NCBI GenBank assembly: GCA_902572605.1
Contig: CACGGD010000002.1
Span: 124,001 to 188,000 of the forward strand
Source: an uncultured Pelagibacteraceae bacterium
GTDB taxonomy: Bacteria; Pseudomonadota; Alphaproteobacteria; Pelagibacterales; Pelagibacteraceae
DNA length: 64,000 nucleotides
Direction of reading: 5' to 3'
The notes below the pieces were generated by a model that saw only the letters and a program-made list of their open reading frames with translations, was not told where the DNA came from and made no database searches. Shown piece by piece: positions 8,660 to 61,351 of the stretch. Every line of letters begins with the position of its first letter. Positions within the stretch are counted from its first letter, which is position 1. The position numbers and the translations under genes were made by a program.

Positions 8660-8671
8660 AAATTATTTAAT
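8651..8671. terminator. AT-only inverted repeat between convergent genes, possible bidirectional terminator
   Basis: ATTAAATAA-AAA-TTATTTAAT; contains the stop codons of both convergent genes. Confidence 0.4.
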
Positions 8672-9686
8672 CAAATATAATACTAAAAATTTGTTTTAAC
8701 ATATCTTTTCTAAGCGAAAATTTATTTTGTTTTAAACTGTTTTGAATTTTATTATAGTTCTCTATTACATATTTTGCTGTTTGAGATAACGAATCTACTG
8801 TTCTTTTTGAAATAAAGACTCCTTTTCGATCTTTTATTATATGTGAAATTTCTTCAAATATAATTACAGGTCGTCTTCGGGCAAGAGACTCATCAACAAC
8901 ATGTGGTTGGCCTTCTGTAAATGATGGCAGTATCAAAATATTGTGTTCATCATAAATATCAATTAAAGATTGCTTATCTGAAATATATCCAACTAACTTT
9001 ACATTTTTATTTTTTGAAACTTGAATATTTTTAAGGTTACCGACTATAGAGAGTTCTGCGTTAATATTTATTTTTTCAAACATTTCTAAGAATTGATAAA
9101 TGCCTTTTTCAGGATTTGCTCTTCCAACATATAAAAACTTAATTTTATTGAGTTTTGCATCTTTATAATCTTTAAACCAATCTTCATCTAAAGTTGAAGA
9201 AGTTATTAAATGACAATTTTTTCCGTGGTATAGTCTCTCATGAAGAGTAAGGACCGTTGAATTTGAAGTCATTATTGAATACATAAAGTGGTAAATCCAA
9301 ATTGACCAAGAACCTAATATAAATTTCCATTCTTCATGACCGCTACTAATTAAATACAAAAAAACTTTTTTTCTAAATAATAATAAAAATAAAAATGAAA
9401 TAAATGTGTAAGGATTAATAGAAACAATCAAATACTTAGAATTTTTAGATTTAAAAGTTAAGAATATAAAATAAATAAATTGAATTATGTTAGATGCTAT
9501 ATCTATTTTTTCTAAATTTATCTTATGGCTTCCTTTTTTTTTAGATTTTCTCCCTATGTATTTAACTTTATGAAAGTTGTTTAATCCCTCAGGAATAATT
9601 TTTAAATTATAATTACTGCTAGAAAATTCATTACTTTCTTCAAAAACTTTATCATTATTAATGACTACTAATAAATTATTACTCAT
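8667..9686 (-). CDS. Glycosyltransferase (GT4-like, group 1)
   Basis: KIKFLYVGRANPEKGIYQFLEMFEKI..., ILILPSFTEGQPHVVDESLARRRPVI. Confidence 0.75.
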   Translation of the reverse strand: MSNNLLVVINNDKVFEESNEFSSSNYNLKIIPEGLNNFHKVKYIGRKSKKKGSHKINLEKIDIASNIIQFIYFIFLTFKSKNSKYLIVSINPYTFISFLFLLLFRKKVFLYLISSGHEEWKFILGSWSIWIYHFMYSIMTSNSTVLTLHERLYHGKNCHLITSSTLDEDWFKDYKDAKLNKIKFLYVGRANPEKGIYQFLEMFEKININAELSIVGNLKNIQVSKNKNVKLVGYISDKQSLIDIYDEHNILILPSFTEGQPHVVDESLARRRPVIIFEEISHIIKDRKGVFISKRTVDSLSQTAKYVIENYNKIQNSLKQNKFSLRKDMLKQIFSIIFD

Positions 9687-9822: not shown

Positions 9823-9898
9823 GCCCTCATAGCTCAATTGGTAGAGCAATTGATTTGTAATCAATAGGTTCGCGGTTCGAGTCCGTGTGAGGGCACCA
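9823..9898 (+). tRNA. tRNA-Thr (TGT anticodon), CCA encoded
   Basis: GCCCTCATAGCTCAATTGGTAGAGCAATTGATTTGTAATCAATAGGTTCGCGGTTCGAGTCCGTGTGAGGGCACCA. Confidence 0.96.
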
Positions 9899-9900
9899 GA

Positions 9901-10923
9901 TTAAATTTGATTGTTTTTTTCGACAAGAATCTTATTTTTACGTCTACTTCTTAATAATAAAATTACTAATGAAAAAATAATTAAAAATATTATTGAAATC
10001 CCTACATAGAGTTTTTTCCACTTCACAAGAAAAAACTTCTCTCTCGCAAAATCTTTAAACTCAGACTCAAATTCTAATGATAATCCTCTTGTGTTATATT
10101 GAATTAAATTTTTTGGTAATATGTCATAATCTTCGATAGTTGAATAATCACCTTTAATTAGTAAATTTTCTTTTAAAATATTCACTACAACAAAAGATGC
10201 TTTTGGATCACCATTTCCCATTCCAACAGAATATGCTTCTAAATTTTCAATTTTGTCACTCCAGTAAATTAAATTTACATTTTGTTTGCCGTAAGCAATG
10301 GACTCAACTAAGTCTCTGAAATATTGTCTTTTTGAATTTCCTGCAAATATAAAGTCAACTTTATCTTTTATAGCAGGATATATATCTTCAAAATAATAGC
10401 TTTTATCATGCATGTAAGGTTTTGGATCGATTATTGTATCATCCCAGATTCGATGATGAGTAAGTAGAATTGTTGGTCCATTTTGAAAATCATCTTTCAA
10501 ACTTTCCTCTAAAAATTTGATTATATTTTCTTTGCTATCCGAAGAATCTAACAATATAAACTTAACATCTTTCTCAACAATCACTTTATTAAGATATCCA
10601 ACATTTGTTATATAATTTTCTTTTGAAATTCTTAATTCATTATTGCCTGGAGAGAAGAATATTTTAGTATCAATAATTGTATTAAAATAATCAAAAATAT
10701 CTTTGTTTTGTAAATCAGAGTCACCTAATAAAAAAATGTAGTCAGCATTATGGGAATTAACTTTTTCTGCAAACTTATTTAGTTTTTTTTGATCTTTGGT
10801 AATCGGATATAAATGGCCAGCAACTATGAACTTGGTTCCAGAGTTAAGATCTTCTGCATATAGCTTAGAAATATTAAAAAATATAATTAAAACAGTTATT
10901 GATATGAATTTAATAGCTTTCAT
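9901..10923 (-). CDS. Calcineurin-like metallophosphatase-fold protein, signal peptide plus C-terminal TM helix
   Basis: N-terminal hydrophobic signal (FISITVLIIFFNISKLYAE), motifs LLGDSD, SPGNNE, LLTHHRIWDD, C-terminal TM (ISIIFLIIFSLVILLL). Confidence 0.7.
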   Translation of the reverse strand: MKAIKFISITVLIIFFNISKLYAEDLNSGTKFIVAGHLYPITKDQKKLNKFAEKVNSHNADYIFLLGDSDLQNKDIFDYFNTIIDTKIFFSPGNNELRISKENYITNVGYLNKVIVEKDVKFILLDSSDSKENIIKFLEESLKDDFQNGPTILLTHHRIWDDTIIDPKPYMHDKSYYFEDIYPAIKDKVDFIFAGNSKRQYFRDLVESIAYGKQNVNLIYWSDKIENLEAYSVGMGNGDPKASFVVVNILKENLLIKGDYSTIEDYDILPKNLIQYNTRGLSLEFESEFKDFAREKFFLVKWKKLYVGISIIFLIIFSLVILLLRSRRKNKILVEKNNQI

Positions 10924-10932
10924 TTATTAATA

Positions 10933-13581
10933 CTACATAAAATTCTTAAAATTAAAATCTACAGAAGGTATATCACGATTATTAACTTTAATGCTAGAAC
11001 CTTTTTCCACTAAATATTTTTCTTCGCTATTAGAAACCAAAATATCTTTAATATTAATTTTTGAAGGTCCGTATTCATTTTTTTTCATATAAGAAACTAC
11101 ACCGTACCTTGTATTGGAAATCTTTACATTATTTGCCTCAAGACTTGAATTGTCTTTGCTGGCTAACCCTATCTTACTATTAAACACTGAAATGTCATTA
11201 ATGCTAATTTTACTTTTCTCACCCACACTAATGGCTTTATCTCCTGCTCCATAAATGATTATTTCTTTTAACTCAACTTCACTACCTGAAAAATCTAATG
11301 CATCATTGCCGGATTCTTGGAAATTTAATTTTGACATTACTCCTTTACTAAAATCTATGTCTACCGCATCTAAATTAACATCTTTAAAAATACAGTTTTT
11401 TAATACAAAATTTGATCTTATTATATTTAAATAATCATCTCCTACTATATTTTCTAAAAATTTAGAATTCTTAATTCTCACATCAGACTGATAAAAATTT
11501 ATCGATCCCAATAAACCTAATCCAGATAATTGCGGGGGAGCAGACATCCTATAAAATACAGTGTTGTCAATTTCTGAAACTTCATTAGCATTAATAACTA
11601 CTATACCATAACCATTTTTTTCTGTTTTAGTGTTGTGATTTAAGCTGTTTGATCTAAATGATTTTATGTTTCCAATAAAATTAGACCTAATAAGAATTGG
11701 ATTTTCAGTCGTTCCGTTAAAGAAAATTGGTGATCGAGAAATAATATGACCTTGGTTTGAAAAAATAATTTCTGTACCTGGTTTAACTAAAACTCTGAAA
11801 TTTGAAGGAATGTAAATTGGTTCATTAATTTCTATCTTATCTGTGTCAAAGATTATATTTTTGTCTTCTATCTTTAAAAAAACATGTTTTTTCAAATTTT
11901 CTAAATCTCCTGTATATAAAGTAGATAGATAATTATTCACTGTATTAGACCAAAAAGCGATTGTAGCTGTTCTATGTTTAGTTTGACCTAAAATTTTATA
12001 TACTATCTTTAGGCTATCCAAGTTTTCTTTATTACACAAATTTTCACTTAAACAATCTATTTTAATCAGTTCTAGTTTTGTAGCTTTGTTTAAAAGTTTG
12101 CCTTTTAAATATATAGGTTTTTTAAAAACACTAACATCTTCATCTTTCTCTTTAATGCCAATAATTTGTACGGGTAATCTTTGTAAATTTGAAGCATTAA
12201 GGAGTAATGAATTTTTTTTACCTTCAATGAAGTTAAGATTAACTCCTTGTATTGGGTTAAGAGTTTTTTCAATTTCACTTCTATATTTTTCTATATACTC
12301 CAAAGAAAAAATATTCTCACCTGGATAATTTTGATTTAAAACTTTTTCGTATTTTTTGAATTCTTCAGAATTTTTACCTATAATTCCACGAATATAATTT
12401 TTTTTTGACATACGAGACAAGTCTTTTAAATACATTTCAAAAAAAGATCTGTCATTGAACAATAAAGAAAGAAAGTATTTTTGATCCATAGAATGTGAAA
12501 AGTTTCTTGGACTTAAATCAGCCCACCAACTGTTTATTTGAGATTGATTAAGATCAATGTGAACTTCTCTACCTATTGGCTCAAGAAGTTTAGTAACTGG
12601 ATTGTAGTAAAATTTAAGGTCTCTCCAATCAAATTCTATTGATCCTAATACAGCCTTTGCAGCCATTAGTTTTGATAATTGCTCCAAGTCGAATATTTCT
12701 GATAATTGTTTGGAATTTTGTCTAAAGCTCTCTAAAAGAGTTATAGCTTCATTTAAATACATTTCCTGCTCTGTATTCTTCTTGCTGTCTTTAAATTGAA
12801 CAGGTTTAATTTCTGATCTCCAAAATGAACCTTCTAAATTATTTATACTCAATTTGTTTACATTGTTTGCTTCATTAATCCATAAATTTTTATTAAAACC
12901 TATGATAGGACCCTCACGTCTATTATTAGACTCCAAAAGTTCTTTTGAGTGTTGCTCCTCTAAATTATAAATTCCTAAATTATTTCCATTTAAAACAAAA
13001 TTTACAAATCTAGTTCTGTGAGCTATTAACCCCTCATCTTTTAAAACTTTCATAAATAACCACTCATGCAAATATCCTCTTGTCTTAGAGTGTTGTAAAG
13101 AAAACCTTTTTAAATTGAATATAGTTTTCAATTCATTTTGTTCTTCGTCCATTTTAATTTTGAAAGACCATTTTAAGGGGTGTTTCCAGTGATCTTCGTG
13201 AACACCTTTCAATTTTGCTTTAATCTTAAAATCTTTATTATCGTAATTAAGAGTTGCAATAACCCACTTATGCATGTCCTCACTAGCCCTAAATGACTGT
13301 AAACTTTCATTCCGAGTTTCTAAAATTTTTTGATAATTTCTGTAATTCATGTCAATAACTAATTTATCAATATCATAAAAATTAGAATATAATCTGTTTG
13401 CAATTGTCTCTGAGATATCATTTAAAAATAGTTTTGTTTTTTTATTAAAATCATATTTTTCAGACCAAATACCAAGAAGAAAGAATATCGAAAATGATAA
13501 AAGTAAAAATATTGTATAAAATATTTTATATTTATAAAAAAATATTTTTTTTGATTTTTTTTTAATTGATTGAGCTTTCAT
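10933..13581 (-). CDS. cotH-like: CotH-kinase-family protein fused to a C-terminal right-handed beta-helix region, membrane anchored
   Basis: N-terminal TM; LHEWLFMKVLKDEGLIAHRTRFVNFVLNGNNLGIYNLEEQHSKELLESN...EGPIIGFNK; FDWRDLKFYYNPVTKLLEPIGREVHIDLNQ; C-terminal degenerate repeats with I/V-rich strand periodicity. Start may be 13593 or 13581. Confidence 0.78.
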   Translation of the reverse strand: MKAQSIKKKSKKIFFYKYKIFYTIFLLLSFSIFFLLGIWSEKYDFNKKTKLFLNDISETIANRLYSNFYDIDKLVIDMNYRNYQKILETRNESLQSFRASEDMHKWVIATLNYDNKDFKIKAKLKGVHEDHWKHPLKWSFKIKMDEEQNELKTIFNLKRFSLQHSKTRGYLHEWLFMKVLKDEGLIAHRTRFVNFVLNGNNLGIYNLEEQHSKELLESNNRREGPIIGFNKNLWINEANNVNKLSINNLEGSFWRSEIKPVQFKDSKKNTEQEMYLNEAITLLESFRQNSKQLSEIFDLEQLSKLMAAKAVLGSIEFDWRDLKFYYNPVTKLLEPIGREVHIDLNQSQINSWWADLSPRNFSHSMDQKYFLSLLFNDRSFFEMYLKDLSRMSKKNYIRGIIGKNSEEFKKYEKVLNQNYPGENIFSLEYIEKYRSEIEKTLNPIQGVNLNFIEGKKNSLLLNASNLQRLPVQIIGIKEKDEDVSVFKKPIYLKGKLLNKATKLELIKIDCLSENLCNKENLDSLKIVYKILGQTKHRTATIAFWSNTVNNYLSTLYTGDLENLKKHVFLKIEDKNIIFDTDKIEINEPIYIPSNFRVLVKPGTEIIFSNQGHIISRSPIFFNGTTENPILIRSNFIGNIKSFRSNSLNHNTKTEKNGYGIVVINANEVSEIDNTVFYRMSAPPQLSGLGLLGSINFYQSDVRIKNSKFLENIVGDDYLNIIRSNFVLKNCIFKDVNLDAVDIDFSKGVMSKLNFQESGNDALDFSGSEVELKEIIIYGAGDKAISVGEKSKISINDISVFNSKIGLASKDNSSLEANNVKISNTRYGVVSYMKKNEYGPSKINIKDILVSNSEEKYLVEKGSSIKVNNRDIPSVDFNFKNFM

Positions 13582-13582
13582 T

Positions 13583-14275
13583 TTAAATTCCACTTACACT
13601 TCTTATCGAATTTATATATTTAGAGTTTCTACTAATTCTAAATGGAAGAGTTTTTAGCATCTCTTTGGATAAGTGGCTGCTGTCTCTGTCAAATTTGAAT
13701 TCTACAATAACATATTTTTGTATCAAAGTTTTTTTAACTAAATTAACCTTTTTGTAAAAACGTTGATCATATATATTGTGTAAAGTATCTATAGTTACTC
13801 TGAATTTTTTATTATAATTTTCATAATATTCTCTTTTGTATTGATTTATTATTTTAGGTTCACAATTGTTTTCAAAAATTATTTTTTCATAACCAGATAA
13901 ATTATCCTTTATAATTTCTTTTAGTTTCTTCAATCTTAGATTTGAATTAATTTTTAAACCGGGTACTTCAAATCTTCTTTTCCATCCAAAAATATTTCTT
14001 TTAAATTTAAATTCTAATTTCCCTTTTTTTTCTTCATTGAAATGAGAATACCATCTATATCTTACTTTCATCCTAGAACTGCTTCCGTAAATATTGTCCT
14101 TAAAAGCCTCATAATCGAAAGAGTCAAAATATATATTATTTACAATTCTATCTAAGTATCTTTTTTTAAAATTTTCTTTATTTAATTTTATCCAATTGAC
14201 TACTAAAGGATAATTTAAATCTTGAGTTATAAATTTAATTTCCAATCTGCTATCTTTAGGAACTAAATTATTCAT
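13583..14275 (-). CDS. VTC-domain (TTM superfamily) polyphosphate-polymerase-like protein
   Basis: Tunnel-type charged motifs RLEIKFI, RMKVRYRWYS, GKLEFKFKRN, RVTIDTLHNIYD, VIVEFKFD. Confidence 0.75.
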   Translation of the reverse strand: MNNLVPKDSRLEIKFITQDLNYPLVVNWIKLNKENFKKRYLDRIVNNIYFDSFDYEAFKDNIYGSSSRMKVRYRWYSHFNEEKKGKLEFKFKRNIFGWKRRFEVPGLKINSNLRLKKLKEIIKDNLSGYEKIIFENNCEPKIINQYKREYYENYNKKFRVTIDTLHNIYDQRFYKKVNLVKKTLIQKYVIVEFKFDRDSSHLSKEMLKTLPFRISRNSKYINSIRSVSGI

Positions 14276-14283
14276 GATAAAGT

Positions 14284-14970
14284 TTATATACTGGGAATTT
14301 GATTTTGATCAATATACGTCACTGAAATACCGGGAAAGTTTTTTCTCAAATTACCCATCATTTTTTCAATAGAATCAATTTTTTTTACACTAATCATATA
14401 AGTAGCTTCAATATTATTGTCTTTTGTATCAAATCTTCGTAAATCAAAATTATCAACTTCGTTCAAAATAATTTTATTAATTTTCTTTAACAGGTTTGCT
14501 TTATCTTTCAGTTTCTCGGTGTTTAATTCTAAGGATATAAACATATTTTTTTCAATAGATGATTTTCTGAAAATCTTAAACAACATCATAAATAATAAAA
14601 TCAAGACTACTGAGGTTAATGTTATCAAAGTTTGATTAGCACCAAAACCTAGGCCAGCAGCTATACAAATAAACAAATAAGATAGTTCTTCTGGTTCTTT
14701 AATGGGAGTTCTGAATCTTACTATTGAAAGAGCTCCTACCAAACCTAATGATAGTGCAAGAGATGATTTTACAATCGTGATAACAAGAGTTGTCGTTAAT
14801 AAAATAAAAGGGAATATATTACTAAACTCCTCTCGATTACTAATTGTTGAACCAAATTTCTTATAATGAATCTTTAAAAAGATAGATACTACTGCACCTA
14901 TCGCTAGGTTTATAAATAACGAAGTAAAGGAAATCGGGGCAGACTCAGTTAATTGAAAATTTTCAAACAT
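14284..14970 (-). CDS. DUF4956-family integral membrane protein
   Basis: VKSSLALSLGLVGALSIVRFRTPIKEPEELSYLFICIAAGLGFGANQ; multiple TM helices then soluble C-terminus. Confidence 0.8.
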   Translation of the reverse strand: MFENFQLTESAPISFTSLFINLAIGAVVSIFLKIHYKKFGSTISNREEFSNIFPFILLTTTLVITIVKSSLALSLGLVGALSIVRFRTPIKEPEELSYLFICIAAGLGFGANQTLITLTSVVLILLFMMLFKIFRKSSIEKNMFISLELNTEKLKDKANLLKKINKIILNEVDNFDLRRFDTKDNNIEATYMISVKKIDSIEKMMGNLRKNFPGISVTYIDQNQIPSI

Positions 14971-15084
14971 ACATTTTTATACATTAATAAATAATAAATA
15001 TCGACTTTTTATATTTAGTGTTGATCAAGCAAATTCATATTATAATAAAATTATTTTAAACAAAACGCTTAAATAAATAGCTAG

Positions 15085-15852
15085 TTAAAAAGTTTCTTTT
15101 CTTAATTGCTCCAATTTAATTTTTTTTTGGAGACTTGTATTTTTGTCATATAGTAAATTAAATTTAATTTTATTGTTTACTTTTACATAAATAGTTTTGG
15201 CATTTCTTATCTCAATATTGTCAGCAACAGCGCTTATAGGTCTTTTAACGGGATTTAAGTTTTTTATAATTATTTTTGATCTATCACTAGCAATTTTACC
15301 TTTCCATCTACGAGGGCGAAAAGCGCTTATAGGTGCAATAGAAATTTTTTTTGAATTTAAATTCAATATTGGCCCAGAAACAGATAAGTTATAGGCGGTG
15401 CTTCCTGCAGGAGTTGAAACTAATACTCCATCTGAAATTAATTTTTTAATTAGGTATTTAGAACCATTTTTAATTGAAATTGAAGCAGCTTGTCTACTTT
15501 GTCTCAAAATTGATACCTCGTTTATTGCTAGAGATTTTTTGATTTTGTTTTTAGTAACTACTCTCATCTCTAATGGAGAGATACTTGTCATTTTTGCATT
15601 AGATAAATTTTTAATAATATTTTTTTTTGAAAATTTATTCATCAAAAAACCATAGTTGCCAGAATTAATTCCATAAAATAAGTTTGACTTTTTTTTATTT
15701 CTTTTCAAAACCTGTAACATAAAACCATCGCCTCCAATTACTATTACTAAATTTTGTCTTTTAATAAGGTTATCTTCTATAATTCTTAATAAAAAATTTT
15801 TTATCTTTATAGACTTTGTGTTTTTATCCGAGATTATAGTCGTTTTAATCAT
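15085..15852 (-). CDS. nadK: NAD kinase
   Basis: VIVIGGDGFMLQVLKR, YGINSGNYGFLMN, SDGVLVSTPAGSTAYNLSVSGPIL. Confidence 0.93.
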   Translation of the reverse strand: MIKTTIISDKNTKSIKIKNFLLRIIEDNLIKRQNLVIVIGGDGFMLQVLKRNKKKSNLFYGINSGNYGFLMNKFSKKNIIKNLSNAKMTSISPLEMRVVTKNKIKKSLAINEVSILRQSRQAASISIKNGSKYLIKKLISDGVLVSTPAGSTAYNLSVSGPILNLNSKKISIAPISAFRPRRWKGKIASDRSKIIIKNLNPVKRPISAVADNIEIRNAKTIYVKVNNKIKFNLLYDKNTSLQKKIKLEQLRKETF

Positions 15853-16009: not shown

Positions 16010-16963
16010 ATGAAAAAAATCTTACTATATAACTCTGGTGGAGGTTTAGGTGACTCAATACAATTGTTTACCTTAATATTGAGCCTTCAAAATCATTTTA
16101 AATCCTCAGAATTTTTTTATTTAGGGTCACATGCAAATCATTTTGTCGGCAAATTAAAAGAATTTAATATTAATATTAAAACACTAGACTTAAGCTTAAA
16201 ATACTTCGGTTTCAGATGGTGGCACTTTTTCCTAGCAAAAAAGAGATTTACCGATCAAAACTTAGATAAGATAGATTTAATCATAGATCTACAATCCAAA
16301 TTAAGAAATACAATAATTTTAAATAAAATACCTCATGATAATTTTTATTCATCGACTTTTAATTTTAGATTCTGCACTAAAAAAAAAGACTATTCATCGA
16401 AGGATCATCTAATAAATTTGGATAAGTTCTTTGATACAAATATCAAGGTATTAATGTTTAACTTAAAAAAGATATCAGAAAAATATATAAATGAAGCTAA
16501 AAGATTATTGCCAGATAAAAATTATGTTGGATTTTCTATTACTCAAGGTAATGTTTATAGAAAAAAAAATTGGTCAATCAATAAATTTATAGATCTTGCA
16601 AATAAGATTGATGAAATTAATAAGGTGCCAGTTTTTTTTATTGAAAGAGATGAGATAGAGTTAATAGAAAAAATAAAGTCTCAAGTACCTAATGCTTTAT
16701 TTCCGGAACATCAGTCCAAAATTTCCTGTCCAGCTCTAGTAACAGCACTTGCTTCAAGACTGAGTTTAGCTATATCAATTGATAACGGAGTGATGCATAT
16801 GATGGGATTAGCTAATATTCCAATGATTGTTTTATTTGGACCTACCGATGCAGAAAAATTTGCTCCAAAAATTAATTCTATTAAAATCTTAGATAGTAAG
16901 CAGATGTATAAATCTAAAAATATTGATACGATAACAACTCATGATGTTTTTAAATTGATTTAA
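16010..16963 (+). CDS. Glycosyltransferase family 9 (heptosyltransferase-like)
   Basis: SGGGLGDSIQLFTLILSL, GFSITQGNVYRKKNWSINKFIDLA, SIDNGVMHMMGLANIPMIVLFGPTDAEKFAP. Confidence 0.82.
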   Translation: MKKILLYNSGGGLGDSIQLFTLILSLQNHFKSSEFFYLGSHANHFVGKLKEFNINIKTLDLSLKYFGFRWWHFFLAKKRFTDQNLDKIDLIIDLQSKLRNTIILNKIPHDNFYSSTFNFRFCTKKKDYSSKDHLINLDKFFDTNIKVLMFNLKKISEKYINEAKRLLPDKNYVGFSITQGNVYRKKNWSINKFIDLANKIDEINKVPVFFIERDEIELIEKIKSQVPNALFPEHQSKISCPALVTALASRLSLAISIDNGVMHMMGLANIPMIVLFGPTDAEKFAPKINSIKILDSKQMYKSKNIDTITTHDVFKLI

Positions 16964-59336: not shown

Positions 59337-60427
59337 TGTTTTTAATTTCTACTAGAAATTTTCCACCAGATATAGGAGGTATACAAAATTTGATGGAAGG
59401 GTTGTCTATTGCGCTTCTGAATCATGGTCCTGTAAAAGTTTTTGCAGATAATTTTGAAAATTCTGAAAATTATGATCAAAATTCTAGATTAAACATACAA
59501 AGAGTTTCTGGTTTCAAAATTTTTAAAAAATATAGAAAAGCTAATTTAGTTAAAGAATTTATAAATAGTAACGAATTAAGAGCAGCTTTTTTTGATCATT
59601 GGAAAAGTATAGAAAATATAGACACATCTATTTTAGAAAAAACAAAAACTTTTTGTTTAATACACTCTAAAGAGATAAATCATCCTCTTGGGTCTACCTT
59701 AAACAAAAGGATGCTTGTGGCATTGAATAAAGCTGATTTTGTAATTGCGAACTCAAATTTTTCAAAAAGTTTAGCTATTAAACTAGGTTATAAAAAAAAA
59801 AATATAAAAATAATTAATCCTGGTTGCAACTATCCTATTGAGGTCAATCATAAAGGCAAAGAATTTGCAAAAATAATTTATGGTGATTCTTTTCCAAAAT
59901 TAATTACAATTTCCAGATTAGATGGAAGAAAAAGCCATCAAAATATTTTAATGACCATTAAAAACCTTTTACCTAAATTTCCAAAATTGAAATATGTATC
60001 AATTGGAGATGGAAATGAAAAAAATAATTTAATTAAATTAACAAAGGAACTTGGCCTATCAGATAAAGTAAATTTTATATATCAATCCACTGAACAAGAA
60101 AAATTAGGTTTACTTGAAAAATCAGATGTATTTGTAATGCCCTCTATAGTTTATAAAAAATCAGTAGAAGGATTTGGAATTACTTATATTGAAGCTGCAT
60201 CTTATGGAAAACCTTCGATCGGCGGAGTCTTTGGTGGTGAGGCAGATGCTATACTTGAAGGAAAAACTGGTTATCTTTGTGACGGTAACGATTTAAATTC
60301 TCTTTATGAAACATTACTAAAAATTTTTGAAAATGATCACTATAAAAAATTAGGTACTAATGCTTTAGAGTTTTCGAAAAACTTTAACTGGAATAAAATT
60401 ATAAAAAAATATATAGAATTAATTTAA
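59336..60427 (+). CDS. Glycosyltransferase family 4
   Basis: RNFPPDIGGIQNLMEGLSIAL, TISRLDGRKSHQNILMTI, FVMPSIVYKKSVEGFGITYIEAASYGKPSIGGVFGGEADAI. Confidence 0.9.
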   Translation: MFLISTRNFPPDIGGIQNLMEGLSIALLNHGPVKVFADNFENSENYDQNSRLNIQRVSGFKIFKKYRKANLVKEFINSNELRAAFFDHWKSIENIDTSILEKTKTFCLIHSKEINHPLGSTLNKRMLVALNKADFVIANSNFSKSLAIKLGYKKKNIKIINPGCNYPIEVNHKGKEFAKIIYGDSFPKLITISRLDGRKSHQNILMTIKNLLPKFPKLKYVSIGDGNEKNNLIKLTKELGLSDKVNFIYQSTEQEKLGLLEKSDVFVMPSIVYKKSVEGFGITYIEAASYGKPSIGGVFGGEADAILEGKTGYLCDGNDLNSLYETLLKIFENDHYKKLGTNALEFSKNFNWNKIIKKYIELI

Positions 60428-61351
60428 ATTACTTTTTATCTCTCTCATTACTGTATCAACATCTAGATCAGCTAAATTTTTTACACTTAATGCTTTGAAA
60501 ATTGAGCTTTCTATACTCACTTTTTTTGCAGAGGTATGCCTTCCGAAAAGAACTAATCCTTTTTTTTTTAAATGAGATGCTATGTGAGCAGGACCTGTGT
60601 CATTAGAAATAACAAATTTTGAACCATATATTAATGAGATCAACATTTTTATATTAATAGGTTGCTCATTGTTCATAACAATATTTGCATTTAATCCTTT
60701 AGCCTCTTCAATTTCATCTGGGCCAGGAGCAACTAATATAGAATAATTGTTTTTATATTCTCGCCTTATTCTTGAAATCAAATCTTTAAAGTAAGGCCAT
60801 TTTTTATTTAGATGTTTTTTTGAACAAAATGGAAAAACTAAAATATAATCCCTGTTTGTATATTGTTGTATTAAAGCTGATGGATCCTCACGGGCCCAGC
60901 TAAGATCTATATTCTTAATATATTTTGTGGGAATATTATTCTTTTTTAATTGTAATTCCATGCGATCTAAAACAGGATAATTATCAAAATCTTTTTTAGT
61001 CTGCCCAACTTCTAATGTGTCTTCAGAAGAAGACCATTCAGAATTTTTTAAAATGAAATTCTTATAAAATTTTGTTCTATTAGAATTTTGTAGATCAAAT
61101 ACTTTAGTAAAATTATATTTAGATAATAATTTTTTTAAATTATATAAGAAAAAAATATTCCAGCGTGGTAATCTTTTATCAATAATTACTCCATCTAGAT
61201 AAGGACACTCAGACATAAATATTGAATAAGGTCTAGAGGTTAGTAAGAAAACTTTTCTATTTGGATAAAATTCTTTAATATCTTTTATAGCCCCATTTGC
61301 TTGTATCAAATCTCCTAGAGAGCCGTGTTTAATTATTAATATATTTGACAT
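60419..61351 (-). CDS. Glycosyltransferase family 9 (heptosyltransferase-like)
   Basis: ILIIKHGSLGDLIQANGAIKDIKEFYPNRKVFLLTS, FVISNDTGPAHIASHLKKKGLVLFG. Confidence 0.9.
   Translation of the reverse strand: MSNILIIKHGSLGDLIQANGAIKDIKEFYPNRKVFLLTSRPYSIFMSECPYLDGVIIDKRLPRWNIFFLYNLKKLLSKYNFTKVFDLQNSNRTKFYKNFILKNSEWSSSEDTLEVGQTKKDFDNYPVLDRMELQLKKNNIPTKYIKNIDLSWAREDPSALIQQYTNRDYILVFPFCSKKHLNKKWPYFKDLISRIRREYKNNYSILVAPGPDEIEEAKGLNANIVMNNEQPINIKMLISLIYGSKFVISNDTGPAHIASHLKKKGLVLFGRHTSAKKVSIESSIFKALSVKNLADLDVDTVMREIKSNLN

Follow-up and report, generated by a model that had tools for sequence, protein, structure and literature searches.

Introduction

The VTC complex of eukaryotes (Vtc1/Vtc3/Vtc4) stores polyphosphate in fungi, and in yeast the polymer is made on the cytosolic side and moved across the membrane (PMC10657179). 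A bacterial trio of genes encoding CotH, a polyphosphate polymerase and DUF4956 has been described from the Pel loci of Gram-positive bacteria, where the genes are accessory (PMC7112168; PMC12345266), and the authors of PMC12345266 did not find this arrangement elsewhere. In the present work, a 64,000-nt stretch of DNA from an uncultured Pelagibacteraceae bacterium (order Pelagibacterales, SAR11; contig CACGGD010000002.1), referred to below as the window, was analysed for a cluster of four genes encoding a DUF4956 membrane protein, a VTC-domain protein, a CotH-like protein and a metallophosphoesterase-fold protein. This module is a variant of the already published, unsolved trio. It is read here, at slightly less than even confidence, as a module spread by horizontal transfer that makes polyphosphate, exports it and uses it at the cell surface.

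An earlier note on this DNA had remarked that DUF4956, VTC and CotH genes co-occur in bacteria without an assigned pathway, and no paper assigning a function to the module was found in the literature searched. In Streptococcus intermedius, deletion of the DUF4956 gene raises Pel, deletion of the CotH gene lowers it, and both alter aggregation (PMC12345266). The Gram-positive Pel loci are like the window locus in holding the same three families in one cluster, tied to surface polysaccharide. They differ in the CotH protein: that of the window has a beta-helix and departs from the canonical catalytic residues, and that of S. intermedius has FN3. Around the module, the window showed no Pel biosynthesis genes, and the trio is not contiguous with Pel genes.

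Results and Discussion

Family assignment and co-occurrence

The four open reading frames (ORFs) were confirmed on the minus strand at 9901-14970, and the operon described in the earlier note was borne out in its order and tight junctions (Table 1). In searches with hidden Markov models (HMMs), the DUF4956, VTC and CotH proteins scored above the Pfam curated cut-offs of 30.6, 23 and 23.8 bits, respectively, in agreement with the earlier family calls; the likely SAR11 origin of the DNA was supported as well. The phosphatase call was not supported by PF00149 (16.3 bits against a cut-off of 21.5), yet this protein matches a metallophosphoesterase family linked to the module, as described below.

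Co-occurrence was determined in two samples, 297 Pelagibacterales genomes at the order level and 200 genomes at the phylum level. At the order level, VTC was present in 37/297 and DUF4956 in 41/297 genomes, and 34 genomes had both (Fisher p = 3e-34). Most of the discordant matches lay at the end of a contig or in a short one. CotH over the Pfam threshold was found in 19/297 genomes, all 19 of which also carry VTC or DUF4956. At the phylum level, the 7 of 200 genomes with VTC over its cut-off are also those with DUF4956, and the two genes are adjacent in 9/9 loci. Two alphaproteobacteria have VTC-DUF4956 but no CotH with it, and many CotH proteins are found where the pair is lacking. A scan with DUF4956 yielded related clusters in Bacteroidota, Chloroflexota, Planctomycetota, Verrucomicrobiota, Myxococcota, Nitrospinota and others.

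From this coincidence, together with the pair lacking CotH and the CotH proteins lacking the pair, VTC-DUF4956 is a near-obligate core pair, and CotH is its usual third gene from Bacteroidota to Chloroflexota. The linkage of the genes is not due to chance. The trio is widespread well beyond Pel loci, although PMC12345266 states that it was not found elsewhere. The co-occurrence proposed for all four genes was thus very strong for three of them; the fourth is rare beside the trio in SAR11, yet linked to the module across phyla.

The VTC protein and its membrane partner

The VTC protein consists of the VTC domain only. As neither a signal peptide nor a membrane segment was detected, it should act in the cytosol, judging from its sequence. 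The motifs quoted earlier (EIKF, KVRYR, LEFKFKRN, RVTID and VEFKFD) were all present in the ORF. Over 37 loci, at least 16 charged or polar positions are invariant (R10, E12, K14, K70, R72, R74, E88, K90, K99, Y146, R148, D163, E192, K194, S218 and K219), and the profile of the order matches yeast Vtc4 (3g3q) with E = 8.5e-15. The charged tunnel set is kept without exception in these loci and aligns with that of Vtc4, whose tunnel residues serve triphosphate and metal binding.

The module thus resembles the eukaryotic VTC complex (PMC10657179) in its catalytic tunnel residues, in having a membrane partner, and in the proposed cytosolic synthesis and membrane transfer. It differs in that SPX and a VTC1-type membrane domain are absent, the VTC protein has no membrane segment of its own, the partner DUF4956 belongs to another Pfam family, and further partner genes act outside the cytoplasm.

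In the AlphaFold model of the DUF4956 protein (pLDDT 84), N-terminal transmembrane helices are followed by a C-terminal ACT-like domain, and the invariant residues Arg 85 and Arg 87 lie in a conserved ALSLGLVGALSIVRFR loop (GALSIVRFR). The model matches several ACT and ferredoxin-like domains, including the C-terminal domain of MgtC (2lqj). The likeness to MgtC/SapB comprises the membrane helices followed by an ACT-like domain, the fold match to 2lqj and a weak match to profile NF007431 (15 bits, far from the cut-off of 214). DUF4956 differs in being another Pfam family and in its obligate pairing with VTC, and it is this pairing that makes it probably a channel for polyphosphate.

In Clostridium perfringens, CP4_0460-CP4_0465 include two membrane proteins of 222-226 amino acids (aa), listed as 'tubulin/FtsZ GTPase', which adjoin VTC genes near CotH (PMC2879425). 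Going by size and place in the table of that paper, these are probably DUF4956 proteins.

The MgtC-like ACT domain also fits a regulatory or assembly unit for surface polysaccharide, in which the DUF4956 and CotH-like proteins would control polymer export, VTC would serve as a ligand sensor and no phosphate polymer would be exported. The rise and fall of Pel in the two S. intermedius deletions, the silent VTC deletion in the same species (PMC12345266) and the many loci beside glycosyltransferase genes are consistent with such a unit. A sensor, however, would not require invariant catalytic residues, and the exported pyrophosphatase and the phosphate transporter described next would be left unexplained. 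We consider this explanation unlikely.

Linked pyrophosphatase and phosphate transporter

Inorganic pyrophosphatase (PF00719) was found in 5/297 genomes of the order, and every copy adjoins the module or is fused with it. The chance that all five fall in VTC genomes is 2e-5, with adjacency not counted. In one of the compared loci (L062:632-3334; L numbers denote these loci), a CotH/beta-helix protein carries a C-terminal PF00719 domain as a natural fusion, which would place the pyrophosphatase outside the cytoplasm if CotH is exported. Separate PF00719 copies, judged by eye, have N-terminal signals, which in Bacteroidota loci are of the lipoprotein type (lipobox). The flavobacterium Dokdonia pacifica (L095) has both the module and a pyrophosphatase belonging to it.

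A PiT transporter (PF01384/PHO4) directly follows DUF4956-VTC in L198 (7159-8769) and L200 (4026-5579), with 352 and 335 bits, respectively; both loci belong to Alphaproteobacteria without CotH in the cluster. The two linkages point to phosphate chemistry, and the pyrophosphatase points to its extracytoplasmic end. In general terms, they favour the surface phosphate module proposed earlier, of which the steps assigned to CotH and to the fourth gene were not supported in the form given, as described in the following sections.

The genome of the window also encodes PPK1 and a membrane H+-pyrophosphatase, so that the module is needed neither for cytosolic polyphosphate nor for cytosolic removal of pyrophosphate (PPi). 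Replacement of PPK1 by VTC was ruled out for this genome, since both are present. PPK1 likewise speaks against a module that only stores polyphosphate in the low-phosphate open ocean, as do the extracytoplasmic CotH/beta-helix, metallophosphoesterase and pyrophosphatase partners and a sporadic spread that does not match a need for storage. Storage by fungal VTC (PMC10657179) and the PiT linkage are on its side, and overall it appears quite improbable.

The CotH-like protein

A single-sequence search of the PDB with the CotH-like protein gave no match; the family profile did find CotH, that of Bacillus cereus, with E = 1.8e-17. The best structural matches of the AlphaFold model were 5jda/5jd9. 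In B. subtilis CotH, D228 and D251 are each needed for activity (PMC7821199), and both equivalents in the window protein are Glu. The first catalytic position is His in 59 of the 71 CotH proteins with the beta-helix motif, and the catalytic pair is His/Asp in most module-linked relatives. Asp/Asp was observed in 11 CotH proteins that lack the motif, a count that includes the reference from B. cereus.

Because both catalytic Asp residues are replaced, the CotH-like protein is, as predicted from these positions, not a canonical kinase, and the label 'protein kinase' is unwarranted. The fold, profile match and best structural match are shared with the Bacillus spore-coat kinase (5jd9/5jda). The differences are the Glu/Glu pair (with His at the D228 position in most module-linked relatives), the large C-terminal beta-helix, the membrane anchor and the absence of spores. 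The extracytoplasmic phosphorylation by a CotH kinase that the earlier note envisaged was therefore not supported in that form.

In four Anaerolineae loci (L102, L116, L117 and L134), VTC-DUF4956 is joined by a canonical Asp/Asp CotH and not by the His/beta-helix type. The one scanned of these CotH proteins, that of L117, has PKD domains.

Some kinase-fold proteins that lack the catalytic Asp, such as SelO, act as nucleotidyl- or other group-transferases. The CotH-like protein might accordingly be such a transferase that releases PPi outside, with the exported pyrophosphatase pulling the reaction and VTC-DUF4956 supplying an activated donor rather than long-chain polyphosphate. The change from Asp to His in 59/71 proteins can be taken as a mark of changed chemistry, and the pyrophosphatase-CotH fusion fits PPi release by CotH itself. 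However, no ATP or other nucleotide donor is known here outside the cytoplasm, and the VTC and PiT linkage is better suited to inorganic phosphate. This alternative is rated as rather unlikely.

In the alignment of SAR11 CotH proteins (33 loci), 15 of the 18 invariant columns fall within the beta-helix: D716, D738, D741, D743, D760, D763, D781, K782, S785, G787, E788, S790, K809, D810 and K833. They are spaced at about one per coil of 22 residues, with model strands at 716, 738, 782, 804 and 826, and this spacing suggests that they would form a groove along the face of the helix. The position of the invariants also suggests that they are the working site of the protein. At fold level, the beta-helix matches tailspikes, polygalacturonases, the alginate epimerase AlgG and alginate lyase; going by the model, the CotH-like protein probably works on or binds a polysaccharide.

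The metallophosphoesterase-fold fourth protein

The fourth protein has a signal peptide and a C-terminal membrane anchor, judged by eye from its sequence, and matches the HMM of the module-linked exported metallophosphoesterase family with E = 1.4e-15. This family adjoins the trio in about 20 loci of several phyla. Its members keep the GD, GNHD and H motifs and are devoid of DxH and GHxH. In the window protein, AGHLYP, GDS, GNNE, THH and GNSKR stand in place of the expected DxH, GDxxD, GNH[DE], H and GHxH, and the catalytic His of GNH is also lost in both the window and L035 members.

The fourth protein is thus linked to the module but may be inactive, and dephosphorylation by it, as proposed earlier, is doubtful for a protein devoid of most metal ligands and of the catalytic His. 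A phosphatase as an invariant fourth gene of SAR11 was also rejected: only 3 of 39 compared loci have a family member beside the trio, namely the window, L035 (on the opposite strand) and L051.

The route in which polyphosphate synthesis is followed by CotH Ser/Thr protein phosphorylation at the surface and then by dephosphorylation through the fourth gene is in keeping with VTC and CotH family membership and with the Asp/Asp CotH proteins accompanying the pair in Anaerolineae. The Glu residues at the equivalents of D228/D251 and the degenerate phosphatase motifs count against it, and it is regarded as highly improbable.

Proposed function

In the reading preferred here, VTC would work at the cytosolic face of the inner membrane and join gamma-phosphates taken from ATP into polyphosphate. 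DUF4956 would serve as its obligate partner in the membrane and probably as the route by which the chain crosses, with the ACT-like domain facing the cytosol. The two proteins would then do the work of the Vtc4 catalytic domain and of the membrane channel of the VTC complex in yeast. On the outer side, the CotH-like/beta-helix protein, held by its anchor, would use or bind the exported chain to alter a polymer of the surface, which is most likely a polysaccharide lying in the beta-helix groove. The exported pyrophosphatase of other loci and the degenerate metallophosphoesterase of the window would act on PPi or short-chain products.

We infer all three of the central steps: polyphosphate as the product, passage through DUF4956, and use by CotH on a polysaccharide. 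Synthesis and export are supported by the kept VTC tunnel set, the VTC-DUF4956 pairing, and the pyrophosphatase and PiT linkage. The polysaccharide side is supported by the beta-helix matches, by an Anaerolineae DUF4956 that is extended at its N-terminus by a signal peptide and a carbohydrate-type domain (PF06439), by glycosyltransferase genes close to many module loci and MBOAT nearby, and by the Pel loci with the S. intermedius deletions. A more specific version, in which a bacterial VTC counterpart exports polyphosphate as a phosphate or energy donor outside, the His-type CotH/beta-helix protein spends it on polysaccharide and the exported pyrophosphatase clears the end product, is speculative and more doubtful than not.

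Several observations weigh against the proposed function. The strongest is that deletion of the S. intermedius VTC gene SIR_1593 had no reported aggregation phenotype (PMC12345266). The literature searched contained no biochemical demonstration that a bacterial VTC protein makes polyphosphate. The monomer model of DUF4956 did not match the membrane subunits of VTC, the significant hits being to its ACT-like domain, and DUF4956 also resembles MgtC, a regulator rather than a transporter. The exported pyrophosphatase occurs in a minority of loci and not in that of the window, and the beta-helix matches, being at fold level, leave the substrate unfixed.

The analysis separates an obligate VTC-DUF4956 core from extracytoplasmic partners, and adds that the CotH partner is usually of a non-canonical His type with a beta-helix and that pyrophosphatase in Pelagibacterales occurs only with the module. 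An unsolved gene neighbourhood is thereby turned into a specific, testable proposal. If polyphosphate does drive chemistry on the outer side, this would be a new way for bacteria to power extracytoplasmic modification by phosphoanhydride energy where ATP is absent.

Distribution and transfer

In a tree of joined DUF4956 and VTC sequences, the window, its nearest SAR11 relative L035 and a Nitrospina sequence form one group (98% SH-aLRT), which is separate from the other SAR11 lineages. Because of this tree and the empty site described below, the module is considered to be horizontally transferred, with repeated acquisition in SAR11 as the simplest reading. Since compact SAR11 genomes repeatedly take up this cargo, a strong effect at the cell surface is suggested; a role in encounters with phages or grazers is speculation.

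Base composition gives no signal of recent acquisition, the G+C content of the module (24-28%) being the same as that of its flanks. A phage-borne origin was likewise rejected: a viral-contig scan with the DUF4956 family returned one distant relative only (28% identity), so the module is not typical phage cargo. As to a defence system, there was no PADLOC match of note, with a single one at 14 bits.

Module versions differ among SAR11 loci. In L031 (13016-14041), L032, L033, L034 and L185, a protein of 280-350 aa stands between DUF4956 and CotH. This protein, which matches no Pfam family, appears to have a repeat-like make-up and a membrane segment at its N-terminus, and it marks one SAR11 version. 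Directly downstream of VTC in L031 (7136-9607), an 824-aa membrane protein carries a sulfatase-fold domain (PF00884); domains of this type occur in transferases for phosphoethanolamine or lipoteichoic acid.

Gene layout and insertion site

The coordinates of the module and its boundaries are given in Table 1. The junctions measure 8 nt (DUF4956/VTC), 1 nt (VTC/CotH) and 9 nt (CotH/phosphatase); the second becomes an 11-nt overlap if CotH starts at the GTG at 13593.

Table 1. Features of the module and its flanks in the window.
Feature	Position	Strand	Details
DUF4956 membrane protein	14284..14970	-	228 aa; PF16316 61.1 bits
Stand-alone, predicted cytosolic VTC (TTM-type polyphosphate polymerase) domain protein	13583..14275	-	230 aa; PF09359 92.3 bits
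Membrane-anchored CotH-like protein with C-terminal right-handed beta-helix	10933..13581 from ATG	-	882 aa; PF08757 37.1 bits
Beta-helix part of CotH-like protein, about residues 683-882	10936..11535	-	invariant columns over 33 loci and model strands
Exported metallophosphoesterase-fold (phosphatase-fold) protein	9901..10923	-	340 aa; PF00149 16.3 bits, below cut-off
tRNA-Thr(TGT), bounding the insert on the left	9823..9898	+	adjoins NAD kinase gene in module-free genomes of the same genus
NAD kinase gene, right boundary of insert, outside module	15085..15852	-	

In at least eight genomes of the same genus, the slot is empty and 4-10 bp separate the tRNA from the NAD kinase match, so that the four genes make up nearly the whole insert; no other genes were present between tRNA-Thr and NAD kinase in the window. 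The tRNA-Thr(TGT)/NAD kinase slot (window 9899-15084 and loci L179, L181, L187, L195 and L196) is a cargo site in the genus, with other genes in the slot of several genomes. The module had earlier been called unexpected baggage for a compact genome. This is half true: about 12% of the sampled Pelagibacterales carry it, as sporadic cargo, and its tRNA-bounded slot takes other cargo too.

In L185 (genome G320, same genus), a different version of the module, in the order DUF4956, 340-aa protein, CotH and VTC, lies on the opposite side of the same tRNA. The neighbours of the module in the window are tRNA-Thr and genes for a glycosyltransferase, an rRNA methyltransferase and NAD kinase. Two family-9 glycosyltransferase genes (16010-16963 and 60419-61351) and one of family 4 (8667-9686) stand alone or near tRNAs in the window, and these three are possibly further surface-polysaccharide cargo.

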